From Vreelandella subglaciescola (lineage in GTDB: Bacteria; Pseudomonadota; Gammaproteobacteria; Pseudomonadales; Halomonadaceae), in contig NZ_LT670847.1 of NCBI RefSeq assembly GCF_900142895.1, positions 1,178,001 through 1,242,000 on the forward strand: a stretch of DNA of 64,000 nucleotides, written 5' to 3'. Shown here in pieces: positions 2,959-37,306 of the stretch. How positions within the stretch are numbered: the stretch's first letter is position 1; each line of letters opens with the position of its first letter. The notes under the pieces were generated by a model that saw only the letters and a list, made by a program, of their open reading frames with translations, did no database searches and was not told the origin of the DNA. The position numbers were made by a program, and so were the translations under genes.

Positions 2959-3264
2959 TATCGAAATTCCTCGATTTAGCGAAATATGGATCCGGGAAAT
3001 ACCCGAGTTGCAGTGGGTAGAACAAGAAACTTTCACCAGACTCAACGCTCGAGGCGCTTCAATGCTGCTGACAACGTTCGACTTGCTAACCAACTGCGAA
3101 GCATCATGGCCTTTTCCCGAGCGCACGTCAACACAATCCGTAAAATAATGTTGTTACGTCACAGCATATACACAGGCGATACAAACCGCGGAACTCGTAT
3201 ACGCTGCGCACATCCAATAACGTAGTACGCGATGGATTTCGCCCAATACCCCACAGGAGCGTCC
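2959..3264. other. Divergent intergenic region, csp / msrA
   Basis: About 300 bases between the diverging csp and msrA genes, expected to carry both promoters and a csp 5' leader. I see no further gene. The upstream extension of the csp frame (to 3126) has no recognisable protein content. Confidence 0.5.
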
Positions 3265-5940: not shown

Positions 5941-8900
5941 TTAAACGCCGTGAATGGCGACCGTACTGCCCCGCCGGCTGGTGCTGACGTCAACTCGCAG
6001 CGGCATCTGTTCTTTCAGCTCGCTAACGTGGGAAATAATCCCGATCATGCGCCCGCCCATCTGCAGCTCGCTGAGCGTAGCGATGGCCTGATCCAGCGCG
6101 TCCTGATCGAGGCTGCCAAAACCTTCGTCGATGAACAACGTATCCAGCTGAATGCCGCCGGCGTAGGCCTGCACTACATCGGAAAGCCCCAGCGCCAGCG
6201 ACAGCGCCGCCATAAATGATTCGCCGCCGGAAAGCGTAGCCACCGGGCGATTTTTGCCGGTATAGGTATCGGCCACGTCAAGCTCCAACCCCGACGCACT
6301 GTTGCCGCCGGTAGGTTCGTCGCGGCGCACCAGCTGGTAGCGCCCGCGGCTCATGCGTACCAGGCGCGCTGACGCCTGTATTAACACGTCATCGAGCAGC
6401 ACGCCCAGCACAAACCGTTGCAGGCTGACGCGCTTCCCCGTGCGCCCGTTGGCCACTTCGCTGAGCGTGCCCCACACGCGATACTCGGCTTCCAGCGCCT
6501 GCTGCTCGCGGTGCGCATCAACCAAGCGCTTTTGAGTGTGCTCCAGCTGATTATGCCGGGCATCAAGCTTGCGCCACGTCTCGTTTTCCTGGGTTTCCCA
6601 CAGGCGCGCCTGCACGGCCTTTTCATGCAGCGCGTCTACATCCGGCGGCGCCAGCCCCGTAAGGCGCGCGCGGCTCGCGTCTAACTGGCCGTCGAGCTTG
6701 GCCAATGTGTGCTGGTAGTGCTCAACCTCAGCGCTTAGCCGCTCGCTTTCGGCGTCGTCCAGCCGCGCGTGTAAAAAGCCGTGTTCGTCGTCAAAGACGC
6801 TTTGAGAAAGCGCCTGCTGCCAGTCGGTGTCTGCCTGTTGAGTTGCCTCTTCTGCGCTAGATGCCCGATACTGCGCGCCGTCCTGTGCGGCTTCAGCGCG
6901 CGCCAGCTCGGTGGCAGCCTGCTGCGCGCCATCCTGTGCTGCCTGCCAGGCGTGTTCGCGCTGGGTAATGTCGCCGGTAATACTATCCAACTGCTCACCG
7001 AGCACCTCGAGCGTGGGCTGGCCTTCGGGCAGTGCGTTGCGCAACTGTTCACACTGGGCCTCCAAGCGCTGATGCTTAAGCTCGGCGTCTTTAAGCGCGG
7101 GCTCAAGCTGTTTAAGCGCCTTATCTTGGGTGCTCCAGCCGTTGCGCAGCGCGGCAAGCGTCTTGTGCTGCTCGGCTATCTGTTCGGCAAGCGCGGCGTG
7201 GCGGGCAGCATCACGCTGTTTGTCGCCGCACGCCTGTGCCACCGCTTCAAGCGGCTGGCTGGCCCAGTCGCCCAGCGCCTCAACGTACTCGCGTCGCTGC
7301 ACATCGTGCTGCTCAAGCCGCTGGCTTAAAAGCTGCACGTGCTGTTTCGCCGCGTGTTCGTCGTTTAGCGCCTGTTCGTGGGCGTAACCGGCTGCTTCAA
7401 CCGCTTCTTTCGTCACCGTGACGGCGTCTGCCACCGCCGGCGCGGGGTGCTCAAGGCCGCCGCACACCGGGCAGGGCGCGTTTGGCTCAAGCGTGCGGGC
7501 AAGCCAGGCGGCTTGGCCCTGATGCCAGCGCATGGCCTGCTCGGTCGCGTGGGTTTTGCCGCGTGCGGCATCGCGGGTGCGCTGCTCGGCGTCCGCGTGA
7601 GCCGTATCAAGCGACTCAACCAGCGGCGGGCGCCGGGCGTCGTGCTCGGCAAGCGTCTGGCGCTGGCGATGCAGGGCGTTCAGGTGGTGAAGCGCATCAA
7701 CGCTGCCGGCAAGCGTCTGCTGTTCTGCCTGCGCTTTCTCAACCACCGCCCCAAGCTCCTCGCCCTGCTGGCGAATGCCGGCCTGCTGCGCCTCGGCATC
7801 GGCGTATTGCTGGTGAAGTGTGCGCCACGTCTGGCTGGCCGCATGGCTGTCTTGTGCGTGCCGGGTTAACGCGCGGCGCTGGTCGAGCGCATGGCTCAAC
7901 GTGTTGTGCCGCTCGCGCAGTGCGGCAAGCCCGTCGTGACGTTCCCGCGCGGCGCCGAGCGTCTGTTGCGCCCGGGCGTTTTCCTCGCGGCGCAGGTTAA
8001 CCGTGGCGGTGTCGCGCTCAAGCGTTTGCGCGGCGCTTTCAGCGGCCTGCTGCGTCTGATGCCGGGCGTTAAACGGCGCGGCGAGTGTCCGGGTTTGCTC
8101 ATGCGCCTTGAGGCGTCCCTGAGCATTGTCGATGCGCGCCTCGTCTTGCACGTGGGCGGCATGCGCCGTTTCCAGTTTACGCTGCTGATCAAACAGCGCC
8201 TGATGCTCATGGCCGCTGTGTTCGGCGCGCTCGGCACGCTGGCGTTCGGCACGGGCGTTCGTCAATGCCGTTTTTGCCGCGTCAATTTGCGGCGCCAGCT
8301 CTGCCAACGCCTCTTCCAGCACGGCTTCGCTTTCGACGCCGCTGGCGTCGAGAATCCCCTGCATCCGCTGGCGGTGATCGCTCACCTCCCGCGTAATGCG
8401 ATTGGCGCGTTCGCGCAGCCGCTCTTCAATGCGCGAGAACAGCCGGGTTTGAAACAGCTGCGAGAAAATCTGCTCGCGCTCGGCCGAACCGGCCAACAGC
8501 AGCTCGCGGAACTGGCCCTGGGGCAGCACCATTACCTGACGGAACTGCCCCGCATCCAGCCCCAGCAGCGCCTGCACCTCGGCCGTGGCATCGCTTACCT
8601 TGCGCGCCACCAGGCATTCGTCAACCTCGCCGTCAGCGTTCAGCCGCCACAGCTGAGCTTCGGGCTGTTGGGTGGTTGTGCCTTCGCCGCGCGCCTTGGG
8701 CCGTTCCTGCTGGGGCACGCGGCGGACACGATAGCGAGTGCCGCGCAGGCGAAAATCCAGCGTGACTTCGGTGAGCAGGCTAGCGGCGGCCTGATCGCAG
8801 CGCATCTGCGCAGGTTCGCGTTCGTTGCCCGTGGTCTGGCCGTAAAGCGCGAAGCACAGCGCGTCTAGAATCGAGCTTTTGCCTGCGCCGGTAGGGCCGT

Positions 8901-23177: not shown

Positions 23178-24521
23178 TTAAACGCTTTCGGCGCCCTCGG
23201 TATGGTGAGGCAGAATCAGGTTCAGGACAATGGCGATCAGTGCACCGGGAATCAGGCCGGATTCGATAATCGCGCGCACGTTTTCCGAATACGCCGAAAA
23301 CAGCTCCTGCTGCGCCGGCAGGCCAATGGCTGCGGAAAGCGAAAGCCCGATGATCACCATGTTGCGCTTGTTGAACTCGATGCCGCTAAGCATCTTGATG
23401 CCCGCGCTGGCAATCATGCCGAACATGATCAGCACCGCCCCGCCGAGTACCGCGCTGGGAATGCTGGAGACCACGCCACCCATTTTGGGGAACAGCCCCG
23501 CCAGCACCAGAAACGTCCCGCCGATGGCCACCACGTAGCGGCTAACCACGCCGGTCAGCGCGACCACGCCGACGTTCTGGCTAAAGCTGATTTGCGGGTA
23601 GGCGTTGAAAATGGCGGCGAAGACGCTGCACAGCCCGTCGGCCATGACGCCACCGGAAAGCTCTTTCTCAGTCGGTTCGCGGTTCAGTCCGCCCGCCGTG
23701 GTGCCGACGATATCGCCGATGGATTCCGCACAGGTCACCAGCGACAGCAGCACCACCGGCAGGATGGCCGCCAACTTGAACTCTATGCCAATGGCCAGCG
23801 GCACGGGCAGGGAAAACCACTCGGCCTTGCCCACGCTGGCAAAGTCCACGGCGCCCAGCAACAGCGCTGCCACATAACCAACAATCAGCCCGGCCAGCGG
23901 GGCGATTTCCGACCAAATGCCCCGGCCGAACTGGTGCATGACCACGGTGACGATCAGCACCACCGATGCCATGATGAGATGGCGAGGCGCACCAAAGTCG
24001 CTCGCCCCGAAGCCGCCGCCGATGTAGGCAAAGGCGACCGGCATGAGCAGCATCCCGATCATGATCACGAACGTGCCCGTGACCACCGGCGGAAACAGAA
24101 ACCGGAACCAGGGCAACAACAGCCCCACCACTGCCATGGCCAAGCCCCCACACAGCGCTGCTCCCAGGGCGGCGGGCACGCCCATACCGACGGCAATGGG
24201 AATCAAAATCGGCACAAAACCAAAGCTGGTGCCCATCACGATGGGCAGTCTTGCCCCAATGCGGCCAATGCCCAGCGACTGGATCAGCGTCGCCACCCCG
24301 GCCACAAACATCGCCGCCTGAATCATCAGCGTGGTCTTGGCCTCGGAAAGATCAGCGGCGTTAGCGATGATAATAGGCACCGTCACGTTGCTGACAAACA
24401 TTGCCAGCACGTGCTGAATGCCCAGCGGAATGGCCTTGCTCCAGGGCGGCATGGCGTTTACAGCATTGGTGCTGGGAGCCGACGCATTCGCGTCATGGGA
24501 TAGCGTATTAACTTCAGACAT
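23178..24521 (-). CDS. NCS2 (uracil-xanthine type) purine permease
   Basis: A 447-residue cation-coupled nucleobase carrier. IPLGIQHVLAMFVSN opens the domain and the SFSQNVGVVALTGVVSR segment is the NCS2 signature of purine, xanthine and uric-acid carriers. About 12-14 transmembrane helices are apparent. It lies downstream of, and on the same strand as, the purine deaminase gene, about 100 bases away. It probably imports the deaminase substrate or product. The exact purine is unresolved. Confidence 0.88.
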   Translation of the reverse strand: MSEVNTLSHDANASAPSTNAVNAMPPWSKAIPLGIQHVLAMFVSNVTVPIIIANAADLSEAKTTLMIQAAMFVAGVATLIQSLGIGRIGARLPIVMGTSFGFVPILIPIAVGMGVPAALGAALCGGLAMAVVGLLLPWFRFLFPPVVTGTFVIMIGMLLMPVAFAYIGGGFGASDFGAPRHLIMASVVLIVTVVMHQFGRGIWSEIAPLAGLIVGYVAALLLGAVDFASVGKAEWFSLPVPLAIGIEFKLAAILPVVLLSLVTCAESIGDIVGTTAGGLNREPTEKELSGGVMADGLCSVFAAIFNAYPQISFSQNVGVVALTGVVSRYVVAIGGTFLVLAGLFPKMGGVVSSIPSAVLGGAVLIMFGMIASAGIKMLSGIEFNKRNMVIIGLSLSAAIGLPAQQELFSAYSENVRAIIESGLIPGALIAIVLNLILPHHTEGAESV

Positions 24522-24618: not shown

Positions 24619-25968
24619 CTAGGCGCGCAGGCGCCGGGCAGCGGCATCATGGCGGTGCAGCAGTGCATCCAGATCAACATCGCAGGGCGCGCCGTCTTGC
24701 ACTTTCCAGCGCCCAGCAACCATCACGCGATCCGCCCGGTGAGCCCCGCATAACAGCAGCGCGGCCAGCGGGTTTTCAGCGCCGGAAAAGCGCGCCTCAT
24801 CCAGCGTAAAGAGCGCCAGATCAGCCTGCTGGCCGGGCTCCAGCCCGCCAATGTCGTCACGCCCCAGGCACGCCGCGCTGCCTTGTGTGGCCCAGCGCAG
24901 CACCGTTTCGTGAGACAGCTGATCAGCGCCGTAACGCAGCCTTCCGAGCAGCAGCGCCTGACGCATTTCTTCGGCCAAATTGGAGTGATCGTTGGACGCC
25001 GAGCCGTCTACGGCCAGCCCCACCGGCGCACCGGCACGCTCCAGATCCAGCGTGCGACACATGCCAGAACCCAGCACCATATTGGAAGACGGGCAGTGGG
25101 CAATGCCGGTGCCCGCCTGCCCCAGGCGCTGGATTTCGTCGTCGTTGAAATAAATGCCGTGGGCCAGCCAGGTGCGATCAGACAGCCAGCCGCAGTCTTC
25201 CAGATAGTCCAGTGGGCGCATGCCGAACAGTTTCTCGCAATAAGCGGTTTCGTCCTGGGTTTCGGCCAGGTGGGTATGCAGGCGTACGTCTTTATCACGG
25301 GCCAGCTGAGCGCTGTCTCGCATCAGCTCGCGGCTAACCGAAAACGGCGAACACGGCGCCAGCGCAACGGTCACCATCGCGCCTTCGCCACGCTGGTGAT
25401 AGCGCTCGATCAGCCGCTCACTGTCCTTGAGAATGGTCGCTTCGTCCTGCACCACGGACTGCGGTGGCAGCCCGCCCTGATCCTTGCCTACGCTCATGGA
25501 ACCGCGGGTCAGCGAGGCGCGCACGCCCAGCCGCTCGGCCGCTTCGACCTGACGATCAATGGCGCCGGTCAGCTTGCCCGAAAACACGTAGTGATGGTCG
25601 GCCACCGTGGTGCAGCCGGACATCAGCAGCTCGGTCATGGCCAGCTCACTGGCCAGGCTGAGCTGCTCTTCATCCAGCCGTGCCCAGACGTCGTAAAGCG
25701 TGGTCAGCCAGGGGAATAGCGCCTTGTTAAGCGCCGGCGAATACGCCCGGGTCAGCGTCTGGTAGAAATGGTGGTGGGTGTTCACCAACCCCGGCAGCAG
25801 CACGTGCTGGGAGGCATCAAACACCTCGTCCACCGGTGTTTCAGGGCACATACCGGCGGCCACTTTTTCGATGATGCGCGTGCCGCGTATCACCACGCCA
25901 CCCCGTGCTTCTTTATCAAGGCAGTCCAGCGGGTTACGCACCCACAAGGTACGAGTGTTATCGGTCAT
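24619..25968 (-). CDS. 8-oxoguanine deaminase-like amidohydrolase
   Basis: A 449-residue metal-dependent amidohydrolase of the guanine/8-oxoguanine deaminase and hydroxyatrazine hydrolase group. Metal and substrate motifs appear in order: GLVNTHHHFYQTLTRA, a later LHTHLAET, WLAHGIYF, and GLAVDGSASND. Family members hydrolyse the amino group of 8-oxoguanine to give urate, consistent with the purine permease downstream. The start is set at MTDNTRT (25968), seven bases after an AGGAAAG ribosome site that lies inside a perfect hairpin. Guanine or a related aminopurine remains possible as substrate. Confidence 0.85.
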   Translation of the reverse strand: MTDNTRTLWVRNPLDCLDKEARGGVVIRGTRIIEKVAAGMCPETPVDEVFDASQHVLLPGLVNTHHHFYQTLTRAYSPALNKALFPWLTTLYDVWARLDEEQLSLASELAMTELLMSGCTTVADHHYVFSGKLTGAIDRQVEAAERLGVRASLTRGSMSVGKDQGGLPPQSVVQDEATILKDSERLIERYHQRGEGAMVTVALAPCSPFSVSRELMRDSAQLARDKDVRLHTHLAETQDETAYCEKLFGMRPLDYLEDCGWLSDRTWLAHGIYFNDDEIQRLGQAGTGIAHCPSSNMVLGSGMCRTLDLERAGAPVGLAVDGSASNDHSNLAEEMRQALLLGRLRYGADQLSHETVLRWATQGSAACLGRDDIGGLEPGQQADLALFTLDEARFSGAENPLAALLLCGAHRADRVMVAGRWKVQDGAPCDVDLDALLHRHDAAARRLRA

Positions 25969-25973
25969 GAAAA

Positions 25974-26057
25974 CTTTCCTCATCAGGAAAGACCGCCCTC
26001 CGTAGTGACGAAGGGTTACCCACGGCTGTGGTTCAGGTGCCTTTCAGGTACCGGAGG
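25974..26057 (-). promoter_or_regulatory. Structured 5' leader with alternative stems and a hidden ribosome site (candidate riboswitch)
   Basis: On the minus strand, CCUCCG (26057-26052) can pair with CGGAGG (26002-25997). This encloses a triloop hairpin (26051-26037) and a CCAC/GUGG hairpin (26031-26020). The 3' half of that stem can instead join an 8-bp hairpin, CCCUUCGU/ACGGAGGG (26015-25996). A third hairpin, CUUUCC/GGAAAG (25991-25974), holds the ribosome site of the deaminase gene. Mutually exclusive stems plus a masked ribosome site are the hallmarks of a translation-controlling riboswitch. It matches no riboswitch consensus I know. The ligand is unknown, with a purine likeliest by context. 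Confidence 0.6.
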
Positions 26058-26153
26058 CAGTCGTTCAACGTTGCGTCGTGTTTCACCACACCTTGTGTAT
26101 CGCGCGTTAGCGCAGCTTGTTGTGTGCGATGAATCCCGAGTCTCACTCAAAGC

Positions 26154-26167
26154 TGACCGAAAGGTCA
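26154..26167. promoter_or_regulatory. Small palindrome TGACC-N4-GGTCA upstream of the purine deaminase leader
   Basis: An inverted repeat with 5-bp arms about 100 bases upstream of the structured leader. It could be an operator or part of the promoter. It lies in otherwise gene-free sequence between the deaminase and glycine-zipper genes. Confidence 0.3.
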
Positions 26168-26272
26168 ACTACTCATTTTTATTCTTCCCGCGAACGTTAG
26201 TTCATGAATTAACAATGGACAGAGATTATTTCGCTACGCGCAGGCCGGCGGATGCGGCCACGTTCTGAAACC

Positions 26273-26298
26273 AAAAAACCCGCCTGGCGGCGGGTTTT
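26273..26298 (-). terminator. Terminator of the glycine-zipper gene
   Basis: AACCCGCC/GGCGGGTT hairpin followed on the minus strand by TTTTTTGG, about 35 bases downstream of the glycine-zipper stop codon. Confidence 0.85.
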
Positions 26299-26329
26299 GC
26301 ATCAACAGCGCAGGCTATTGCACGTCCTG

Positions 26330-26935
26330 CTACCCTTCGCGCGTATTGCGCCAGTCGGGCGAGCCGTTTTCCAGTAGTACGCGTTCACCGTCAGGCTTGT
26401 TCTCAAGGCGAGTAGTGCGCACGCTTTCACCGTCGCGCCATGAGACGTCGTAGCCTTCGGTTTCCTGGTGGGTGTCTACCACCGTGCGGCATTCTTCACG
26501 GGTGACCGTGCGCGTCTGCGGCTGAGACTGCCCGGCCTGGGCACGCTGCCGGTTTTCCACCCGATCCTGCACCTCGCGCCCGGCCAGGGCACCGCCGATG
26601 GCACCGGCAGCCGTGGCAATTTTCTTGCCGCTGCCGCCGCCCACCTGATTCCCCAGCAGGCCACCAACTACGGCACCGGCGGCCGAGCCCAACAGCTTGT
26701 TCGGATCGCTGCTTCTCGCTTGTGGCTGCGACTGCTGCTGAACGGGCTGCTGTACCTGCACGTTTTCGCACACTTCTCGCGGCGTCTCGACGGTGCGGGT
26801 CAGCGCCTCCACGTCAACAATCTCGGCGTAACGCGGCCCGTCGGGCTGTTCCTGAATCTGCCACGCGCCAAATGCCAGGCCACCCAGCCCCAGTATCGCA
26901 AGCGTTGACCCTACCACGATGGATTTGCTCATCAT
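26330..26935 (-). CDS. Glycine-zipper 2TM domain surface-antigen-like protein
   Basis: A 201-residue envelope protein. It has an N-terminal hydrophobic segment (VVGSTLAILGLGGLAFGAW), a Gln-rich linker, then the glycine-zipper pair LLGSAAGAVVGGLLGNQVGG and ATAAGAIGGALAG found in 17 kDa surface antigen/OmpA-anchoring proteins. The C-terminal region (TREECRTVVDTHQETEGYDVSW) is a recurrent extension in gammaproteobacterial members. Two adjacent ATGs can start it. The second (26932) has the better spacing to GGGAG. No lipobox is visible. The function is unknown beyond the envelope location. Confidence 0.78.
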   Translation of the reverse strand: MMSKSIVVGSTLAILGLGGLAFGAWQIQEQPDGPRYAEIVDVEALTRTVETPREVCENVQVQQPVQQQSQPQARSSDPNKLLGSAAGAVVGGLLGNQVGGGSGKKIATAAGAIGGALAGREVQDRVENRQRAQAGQSQPQTRTVTREECRTVVDTHQETEGYDVSWRDGESVRTTRLENKPDGERVLLENGSPDWRNTREG

Positions 26936-37263: not shown

Positions 37264-37306
37264 AAAAAACCCGCCAAAGTGTGCTTCATCGAGAGGCATG
37301 GCGGGT
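37264..37306 (-). terminator. Terminator-like hairpin between hsdM and abi
   Basis: CCCGCCA/TGGCGGG arms around a 22-base loop, followed on the minus strand by TTTTTTG, about 70 bases after hsdM and just before the abi ribosome site. It would reduce read-through from hsdM into abi-hsdS. Confidence 0.6.

Follow-up and report, generated by a model that had tools for sequence, protein, structure and literature searches.

A conserved, apparently undescribed cis-regulatory RNA before the 8-oxoguanine deaminase gene of Halomonadaceae, likely a purine riboswitch

Results

The deaminase gene and its leader

The window is the whole stretch of DNA that was analysed, 64,000 nucleotides of Vreelandella subglaciescola (contig NZ_LT670847.1, positions 1,178,001 to 1,242,000). 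Two genes on its reverse strand define the locus.

23178..24521, reverse strand: xanthine-permease-family (NCS2) transporter gene (TIGR03173, 425.9 bits, cutoff 414.15)
24619..25968, reverse strand: 8-oxoguanine deaminase gene (NCBIfam NF006055, 678.8 bits, cutoff 532)

The original prediction spoke of a purine deaminase with a permease downstream, and both genes were assigned by family models above their cutoffs. The transporter gene is probably in one operon with the deaminase gene. A xanthine-type permease also comes next after the deaminase in four of the six downstream frames tested (L016, L017, L018 and L019); those tried in L020 and L021 gave no family.

The deaminase start codon at 25968 is the start used by orthologues. 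It lies five bases past a hairpin at 25991-25974, and a second in-frame ATG (25983) sits inside the loop of this hairpin. The neighbouring gene upstream stops short of a terminator-like stem (26298-26275), and the leader is therefore probably on its own transcript. Scanning 25900-26400 revealed no sigma-70-like promoter; relatives have a promoter-like TTGACA sequence upstream of the conserved core described below. The folding energy of the 205-base leader was -73.3 kcal/mol, compared with a shuffle mean of -60.4 kcal/mol (z -3.0; 1 of 200 shuffles did as well).

A palindrome lies further upstream.

26153..26168, reverse strand: palindrome TTGACCTTTCGGTCAG, upstream of the leader, a possible operator (exact pattern in 6 of 213 loci)

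This palindrome may resemble RutR-type sites, as a transcription regulator's operator would. It is exact in three genomes, namely the window's own (L001, L003, L099), G146 (L004, L098) and that of L053, and was not found in L102, the closest relative. At this place most g19/g20 loci (e.g. L105 and L113) carry palindromic TTGTATACAA / GTACACA boxes, beside the TTGACA box and upstream of the core. These boxes are possibly operators, perhaps of the GntR type.

Stems of the window's leader

The following stems of the leader had been predicted in whole or in part.

26052..26062, reverse strand: outer stem P0, 5' strand GACUGCCUCCG (pairs with the 3' strand; matched-versus-swapped test)
25991..26002, reverse strand: outer stem P0, 3' strand (complementarity; matched-versus-swapped test)
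25996..26015, reverse strand: alternative hairpin, anti-P1, which uses the P1 3' strand and is incompatible with P1 and P0 (8 pairs)
25974..25991, reverse strand: hairpin masking the ribosome binding site AGGAAAG at 25980-25974 (7 pairs; stem kept in L102 and L004)

The closing stem of CCUCCG (26057-26052) with CGGAGG (26002-25997) is present on the reverse strand. Allowing a bulge lengthens it to 11 pairs (26062-26052 with 26002-25991). We found the alternative hairpin 26015-25996 (CCCUUCGU/ACGGAGGG) as described, one of its pairs being U-G, and likewise the hairpin said to contain the ribosome site. The latter's stem is kept in both L102 and L004, whose deaminases are 96% and 91% identical to the window's, and its loop is altered in L004. 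A scan listed this hairpin as terminator-like. Neither L102 nor L004 keeps the U run that follows it, and we therefore prefer masking of the ribosome site to transcription termination.

Two inner hairpins had also been proposed. The one at 26031-26020 is conserved, whereas the one around 26051-26035 is not: it would pair away the conserved core, and it is kept in L102 and not in L004. The stems from which a three-way junction had been built exist, but the conserved structure consists of two stems around an internal loop.

A conserved core of two short stems

The conserved element, absent from the original list of stems, spans 26043-26011 on the reverse strand. It reads AAGG-CACCUGAA-CCAC-loop-GUGG-GUAAC-CCUU, that is, two short stems around a 13-base internal loop.

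26040..26043, reverse strand: P1, 5' strand AAGG (AGG invariant, 19 of 19 cores)
26032..26039, reverse strand: junction CACCUGAA, 5' half of the internal loop (7 of 8 bases invariant and the first nearly so, 19 cores)
26020..26031, reverse strand: P2 hairpin CCAC-AGCC-GUGG (paired in 100% of cells; both-sided changes at 2 of 4 pairs)
26015..26019, reverse strand: junction GUAAC, 3' half of the internal loop (invariant, 19 of 19 cores)
26011..26014, reverse strand: P1, 3' strand CCUU (CCU invariant, 19 of 19 cores)

Across the 19 distinct cores, which come from several genera, 22 columns are invariant. The conserved internal loop (CACCUGAA plus GUAAC) is the likely ligand pocket. The P2 loop region measures 8 to 44 bases in 50 loci. 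Five further loci (L165, L167, L168, L169 and L171) have long P2 loops, and the whole match there takes up 106 to 200 bases; in one of them (L169:124-323) more than 100 bases resembling a dispersed repeat are inserted in the loop. In the loci measured, the deaminase match starts 35 to 80 bases past the core.

Distribution of the core

Of 151 family genomes searched at the DNA level, 12 matched, including the window's own; ten of the others match the middle of the leader only. Protein search of named genomes yielded 80 orthologous deaminase loci, and core-like sequence was present in all ten Halomonadaceae loci among them. A covariance model of the core (R1) matched 49 of 275 family genomes with E values no higher than 2.8e-7. 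Every one of these 49 strong matches has the deaminase just downstream, as judged by inspection of the locus in 47 (same strand) and by coordinates in G110 and G104.

Protein search of the same 275 genomes placed 57 orthologues at 78% identity or more, a single one at 64% and another eleven at 52-54%. The core precedes 55 of the 57: the 49 strong matches, one weaker match (G145, L156) and the five long-P2 loci, which came from an unfiltered search. Conservation in related genomes had been set beforehand as a test of the prediction, and it was observed. A conserved structured element with P2 pairing kept thus stands in the 5' leader of a metabolic gene in 55 of 57 orthologues, as a riboswitch would. 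The two coreless orthologues, L166 and L170, keep the promoter-like sequence and the coding start and lack the intervening leader; the core is lost as a unit in both.

The DNA upstream of the 64% orthologue and of three 53-54% orthologues (among L172-L176) holds no credible core. The other 218 family genomes gave no R1 match as strong as E 1e-4 under strict filters, which lose long-loop members; these filters missed the five long-P2 loci and may have missed similar members among the 218. In a class sample of 369 genomes, only the window's own gave a strong R1 match. Weak matches in 12 others of the 369 (E 6.5e-4 to 0.092) had neither the core pattern nor a deaminase at the locus and were rejected. 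Plasmid records contained no match to the window's element.

The 50-locus set leaves out L155 and L157, which are degenerate or orphan copies. L157:1599-1624 (G249, of the window's genus) is a core copy scoring 28.3 bits with no close deaminase orthologue found, perhaps a relict after gene loss. L155:1544-1587 (G184) is a degenerate second core copy, followed by a short stretch that by eye resembles the deaminase N-terminus; tblastn gave no convincing deaminase there (best E 0.01). Before an Alcaligenes orthologue of 78% identity (L022:2900-2930), AGGGACCTGAATAACCCTT resembles the core without P2.

Covariation in P1 and P2

Compensatory changes in relatives had been expected, and the inner stem P2 does change with its pairing kept. 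The P2 covariation score exceeded that of all 500 shuffles and of slid versions. The count of P2 pairs with both-sided changes was matched by 138 of 500 shuffles. Against a simulation on the deaminase tree (47 sequences after removal of three duplicate rows), the P2 pair p5_2/p3_-2 ranked 2 of 1891 column pairs, with 96% standard pairs and an E of about 0.08. First rank went to a pair of columns that do not form a base pair and that track the split between clades. The remaining P2 pairs were not significant against this null, and the outer P1 pairs showed no covariation. Since AGG and CCU hardly vary, the pairing of P1 is without covariation support and rests on position and complementarity. 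A universally long P1 was considered and rejected: P1 is long in some relatives only (10 pairs in L139, L140 and L142), and its outer pairs do not covary. The five long-P2 loci entered none of the covariation or switching tests. Alignment A2, which includes weak and probably unrelated matches, was set aside as evidence.

Pairing alternatives and the ribosome site

By eye, the outer stem P0 wraps the core with lineage-specific letters. Its upstream strand, CUCCGGC in many lineages, is in these complementary to the ribosome site GCCGAGGAG as well. The P1 3' strand of L139, L140 and L142 has two possible partners, one upstream (10 pairs) and the other the ribosome site GGACAAC. From the sequences, these alternative pairings look like marks of a translational switch whose logic would favour ON upon aptamer formation.

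We compared matched with swapped partners. For P0, matched strands did better in an 8-locus group that includes the window and some close relatives (p 0.009); in 13 loci of the g19/g21 set there was no gain (p 0.13). The upstream strand paired no better with its own ribosome site than with swapped ones in either set (p 0.40 and 0.41), and the same was true of the P1 3' strand (p 0.70). Matched P1 strands marginally beat swapped ones (26 loci, p 0.04). After near-duplicates were thinned, leaving 31 of the 50 loci, the core paired more strongly with the bases downstream than with shuffles of them (Fisher 2e-5, 31 related loci, 7 below 0.05). The window's own core had no such excess (p 0.42).

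When the aptamer was imposed in the folding model, the ribosome site opened in 21 and closed in 9 of 50 loci. It opened in 11 and closed in none of the 21 loci of the window's and g19/g21 sets; in the remaining 29 it opened in 10 and closed in 9. The window's own site was unmoved (0.20 to 0.21), and its masking hairpin stayed closed. The masking structure differs by lineage, and the window and two close relatives use the local hairpin 25991-25974.

We also considered an upstream peptide ending at the TGA of the core. An in-frame start lies within 100 bases in 34 of 50 loci (an uncontrolled count), and the arrangement is not general.

A second leader motif before the same deaminase

A different motif, CCUGGAUCRGCAGACAGG-N-ACUGAGCYGR, precedes the deaminase in 48 of the 80 orthologous loci and in none of the ten from Halomonadaceae. 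Its hosts include Pseudomonas, Rahnella, Serratia, Microbacterium, Arthrobacter and others (enterobacteria and actinobacteria). It lies at L065:2944-2990, in L055 and at like sites throughout the 48 loci, and also in L177 and L204-L213. A stretch similar to the L169 insert sits between this motif and the gene in L177. CCUG and CAGG form a stem, UCRGC pairs with GCYGG, and in L060 and L069 an A-to-G and a U-to-C change occur together. The motif is apparently an H-type pseudoknot, as far as its sequence indicates. With near-duplicates thinned (27 of the 48 loci used), its 3' strand paired better with its own ribosome-site region than with swapped ones (p 0.01).

In a phylum sample not chosen by gene, strong matches occurred in 11 of 299 genomes. 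A class sample, likewise not chosen by gene, gave one strong match in 340 genomes, which was one of the same 11, and 25 more that were weak (E 1.8e-4 to 0.01). All 11 strong matches precede deaminase orthologues of 62-66% identity. The motif had no Rfam match, and plasmid records gave three partial matches, none covering 80% of the query. Its model (R2) had no match in the window's leader. Elsewhere in the window R2 matched weakly at 6898-6955 (reverse strand, 19.4 bits), probably by chance, and at 25636-25683 (10.1 bits).

Two Pannonibacter loci, L059 and L093, share a further conserved stretch, CTGTGCGGAACTCGGGC ... CTATCNAAGCCYGCAGGTCCAG, upstream of the deaminase match at 3001.

Search of known RNA families and literature

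No Rfam 15 family reached its gathering score in the leader (whole-window scan) or in 12 loci, four of them with the core. Under permissive settings, the leader and six short loci matched families only at scores that fell far short of the gathering cutoffs. The leader had been said to fit none of the purine, xanthine, guanidine, TPP and ZTP classes, and the Rfam 15 search, which presumably covers the purine riboswitch, agrees. The motifs of the main 2017 catalogue are reportedly in Rfam; the catalogue itself lay outside our search of the open-access literature. None of the papers searched joined a riboswitch with 8-oxoguanine deaminase, one review mentioned riboswitches, 8-oxoguanine and a deaminase, the strings of both motifs gave nothing related, and guanine deaminase riboswitch candidates led to NMT1 only.

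The passages on NMT1 RNAs in PMC7373994 describe two stems with a conserved junction and place some of these RNAs before 8-hydroxyguanine/guanine deaminase genes. For the crystallised RNA, the corresponding passages of PMC8266621 give the junction as GAAGCG and CGGAAAU and report several bases as intolerant of change. Identity with NMT1 was rejected, as these junction bases are absent from the core and the pattern had no match in the window.

Elsewhere in the window, 37269-37305 (reverse strand) matched abiF RNA (RF03085) with 42.4 bits against a gathering score of 37. An abortive-infection type system possibly lies nearby.

Discussion

The core is almost certainly a conserved and apparently undescribed cis-regulatory RNA. 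The original prediction of an undescribed riboswitch is therefore supported as far as such an RNA before a purine deaminase is concerned, and its three-way-junction model was partly wrong. On balance we favour a small-molecule riboswitch. It is likely a purine riboswitch; if it is a riboswitch at all, a purine is the likely ligand, as judged by gene function alone. The full reading, an aptamer of a class outside Rfam that senses a purine and acts as a translational ON switch for the deaminase, has in our view slightly better than even prospects.

According to this proposal, the leader would bear a small cis-acting aptamer in which P1 and P2 enclose the 13-base, nearly invariant internal loop as a pocket. 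The likeliest ligand would be a purine of the deaminase pathway, such as 8-oxoguanine, guanine, xanthine or urate. Ligand binding would keep P1 and the core intact and so bar the core and the P1 3' strand from pairing downstream. The bound state would then let the outer stem P0 form. Without ligand, the upstream P0 strand of many relatives could cover the ribosome site, and binding would thus raise translation.

An mRNA leader site for a protein, either an RNA-binding regulator or the deaminase itself, is the strongest competitor, though we consider it unlikely. It would account for the single gene type downstream of every strong match examined, and the confinement of the element to one family (49 of its 275 genomes; only the own genome in 369 of the class) fits autoregulation as well as a riboswitch. 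Metabolite pockets typically consist of an almost unvarying internal loop flanked by two short stems. The 13-base loop of the core suits such a pocket, and no regulator gene was identified; neither point is decisive.

A constitutive fold that acts on mRNA stability, or as a thermosensor at the masked ribosome site, would involve no ligand. The window's masking hairpin, closed with or without the aptamer in the model, fits such a fold. This reading leaves unexplained why the unpaired junction bases are the most conserved, and we regard it as improbable.

Very improbable is a DNA operator for a transcription factor, with half sites AGGCACCTGAACC and GGGTAACCCT and no RNA structure. In its favour, part of the core forms an inverted repeat, and further palindromes that are probably operators are present upstream. 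The half sites, however, are spaced 8 to 44 bases apart in 50 loci and far more in five others, and this widely variable P2 loop length favours the end of a hairpin over an operator. The P2 letters also change with pairing kept, and the element lies between the promoter-like sequence and the start codon. A diverged NMT1 xanthine/uric acid riboswitch is scarcely credible: it too has two stems and a conserved junction and in part precedes 8-hydroxyguanine/guanine deaminase genes in the account of PMC7373994, but its junction bases, several of them intolerant of change in the passages of PMC8266621, are not in the core, and its pattern is unmatched in the window.

If the riboswitch reading is true, the core founds a new class among small cis-regulatory RNAs, one whose internal loop is compact and hardly varies. 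It fits a transcript of about 45 bases for a ligand-binding assay. Such an assay would directly test whether bacteria sense an oxidised purine via RNA, and would also help to establish what these deaminases really act on. Counting the second motif, 8-oxoguanine deaminase would have come under RNA control at least twice. That one gene is preceded by two different conserved RNAs makes it more credible that RNA control of this deaminase is important. It is a tentative and still doubtful possibility that two unrelated, undescribed riboswitch classes independently control 8-oxoguanine deaminase, each responding to the enzyme's substrate or to a closely related oxidised purine, and that bacteria in this way meter damaged or scavenged guanine by RNA.

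Comparison with known systems

The second motif shares with the core the same deaminase downstream and the lack of an Rfam match. It differs in being an apparent pseudoknot with other conserved bases.

The purine riboswitch family (guanine, adenine, xanthine-II and guanine-II) has purine ligands, as suspected for the core too. Its architecture is a three-way junction. In contrast, the core has no Rfam match and consists of two stems and an internal loop.

The NMT1 xanthine riboswitch, as portrayed in the relevant passages of PMC7373994 and PMC8266621, is like the core a short two-stem RNA with a conserved junction and deaminases among its downstream genes. Translational control has been proposed for it (PMC7373994, PMC8266621), as we propose for the core. 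The conserved junction bases given in the passages of PMC8266621 differ from those of the core. Furthermore, NMT1 is reported there and in PMC7373994 as an OFF switch of many Proteobacteria, whereas the core was found in one family only and its logic looks like that of an ON switch.
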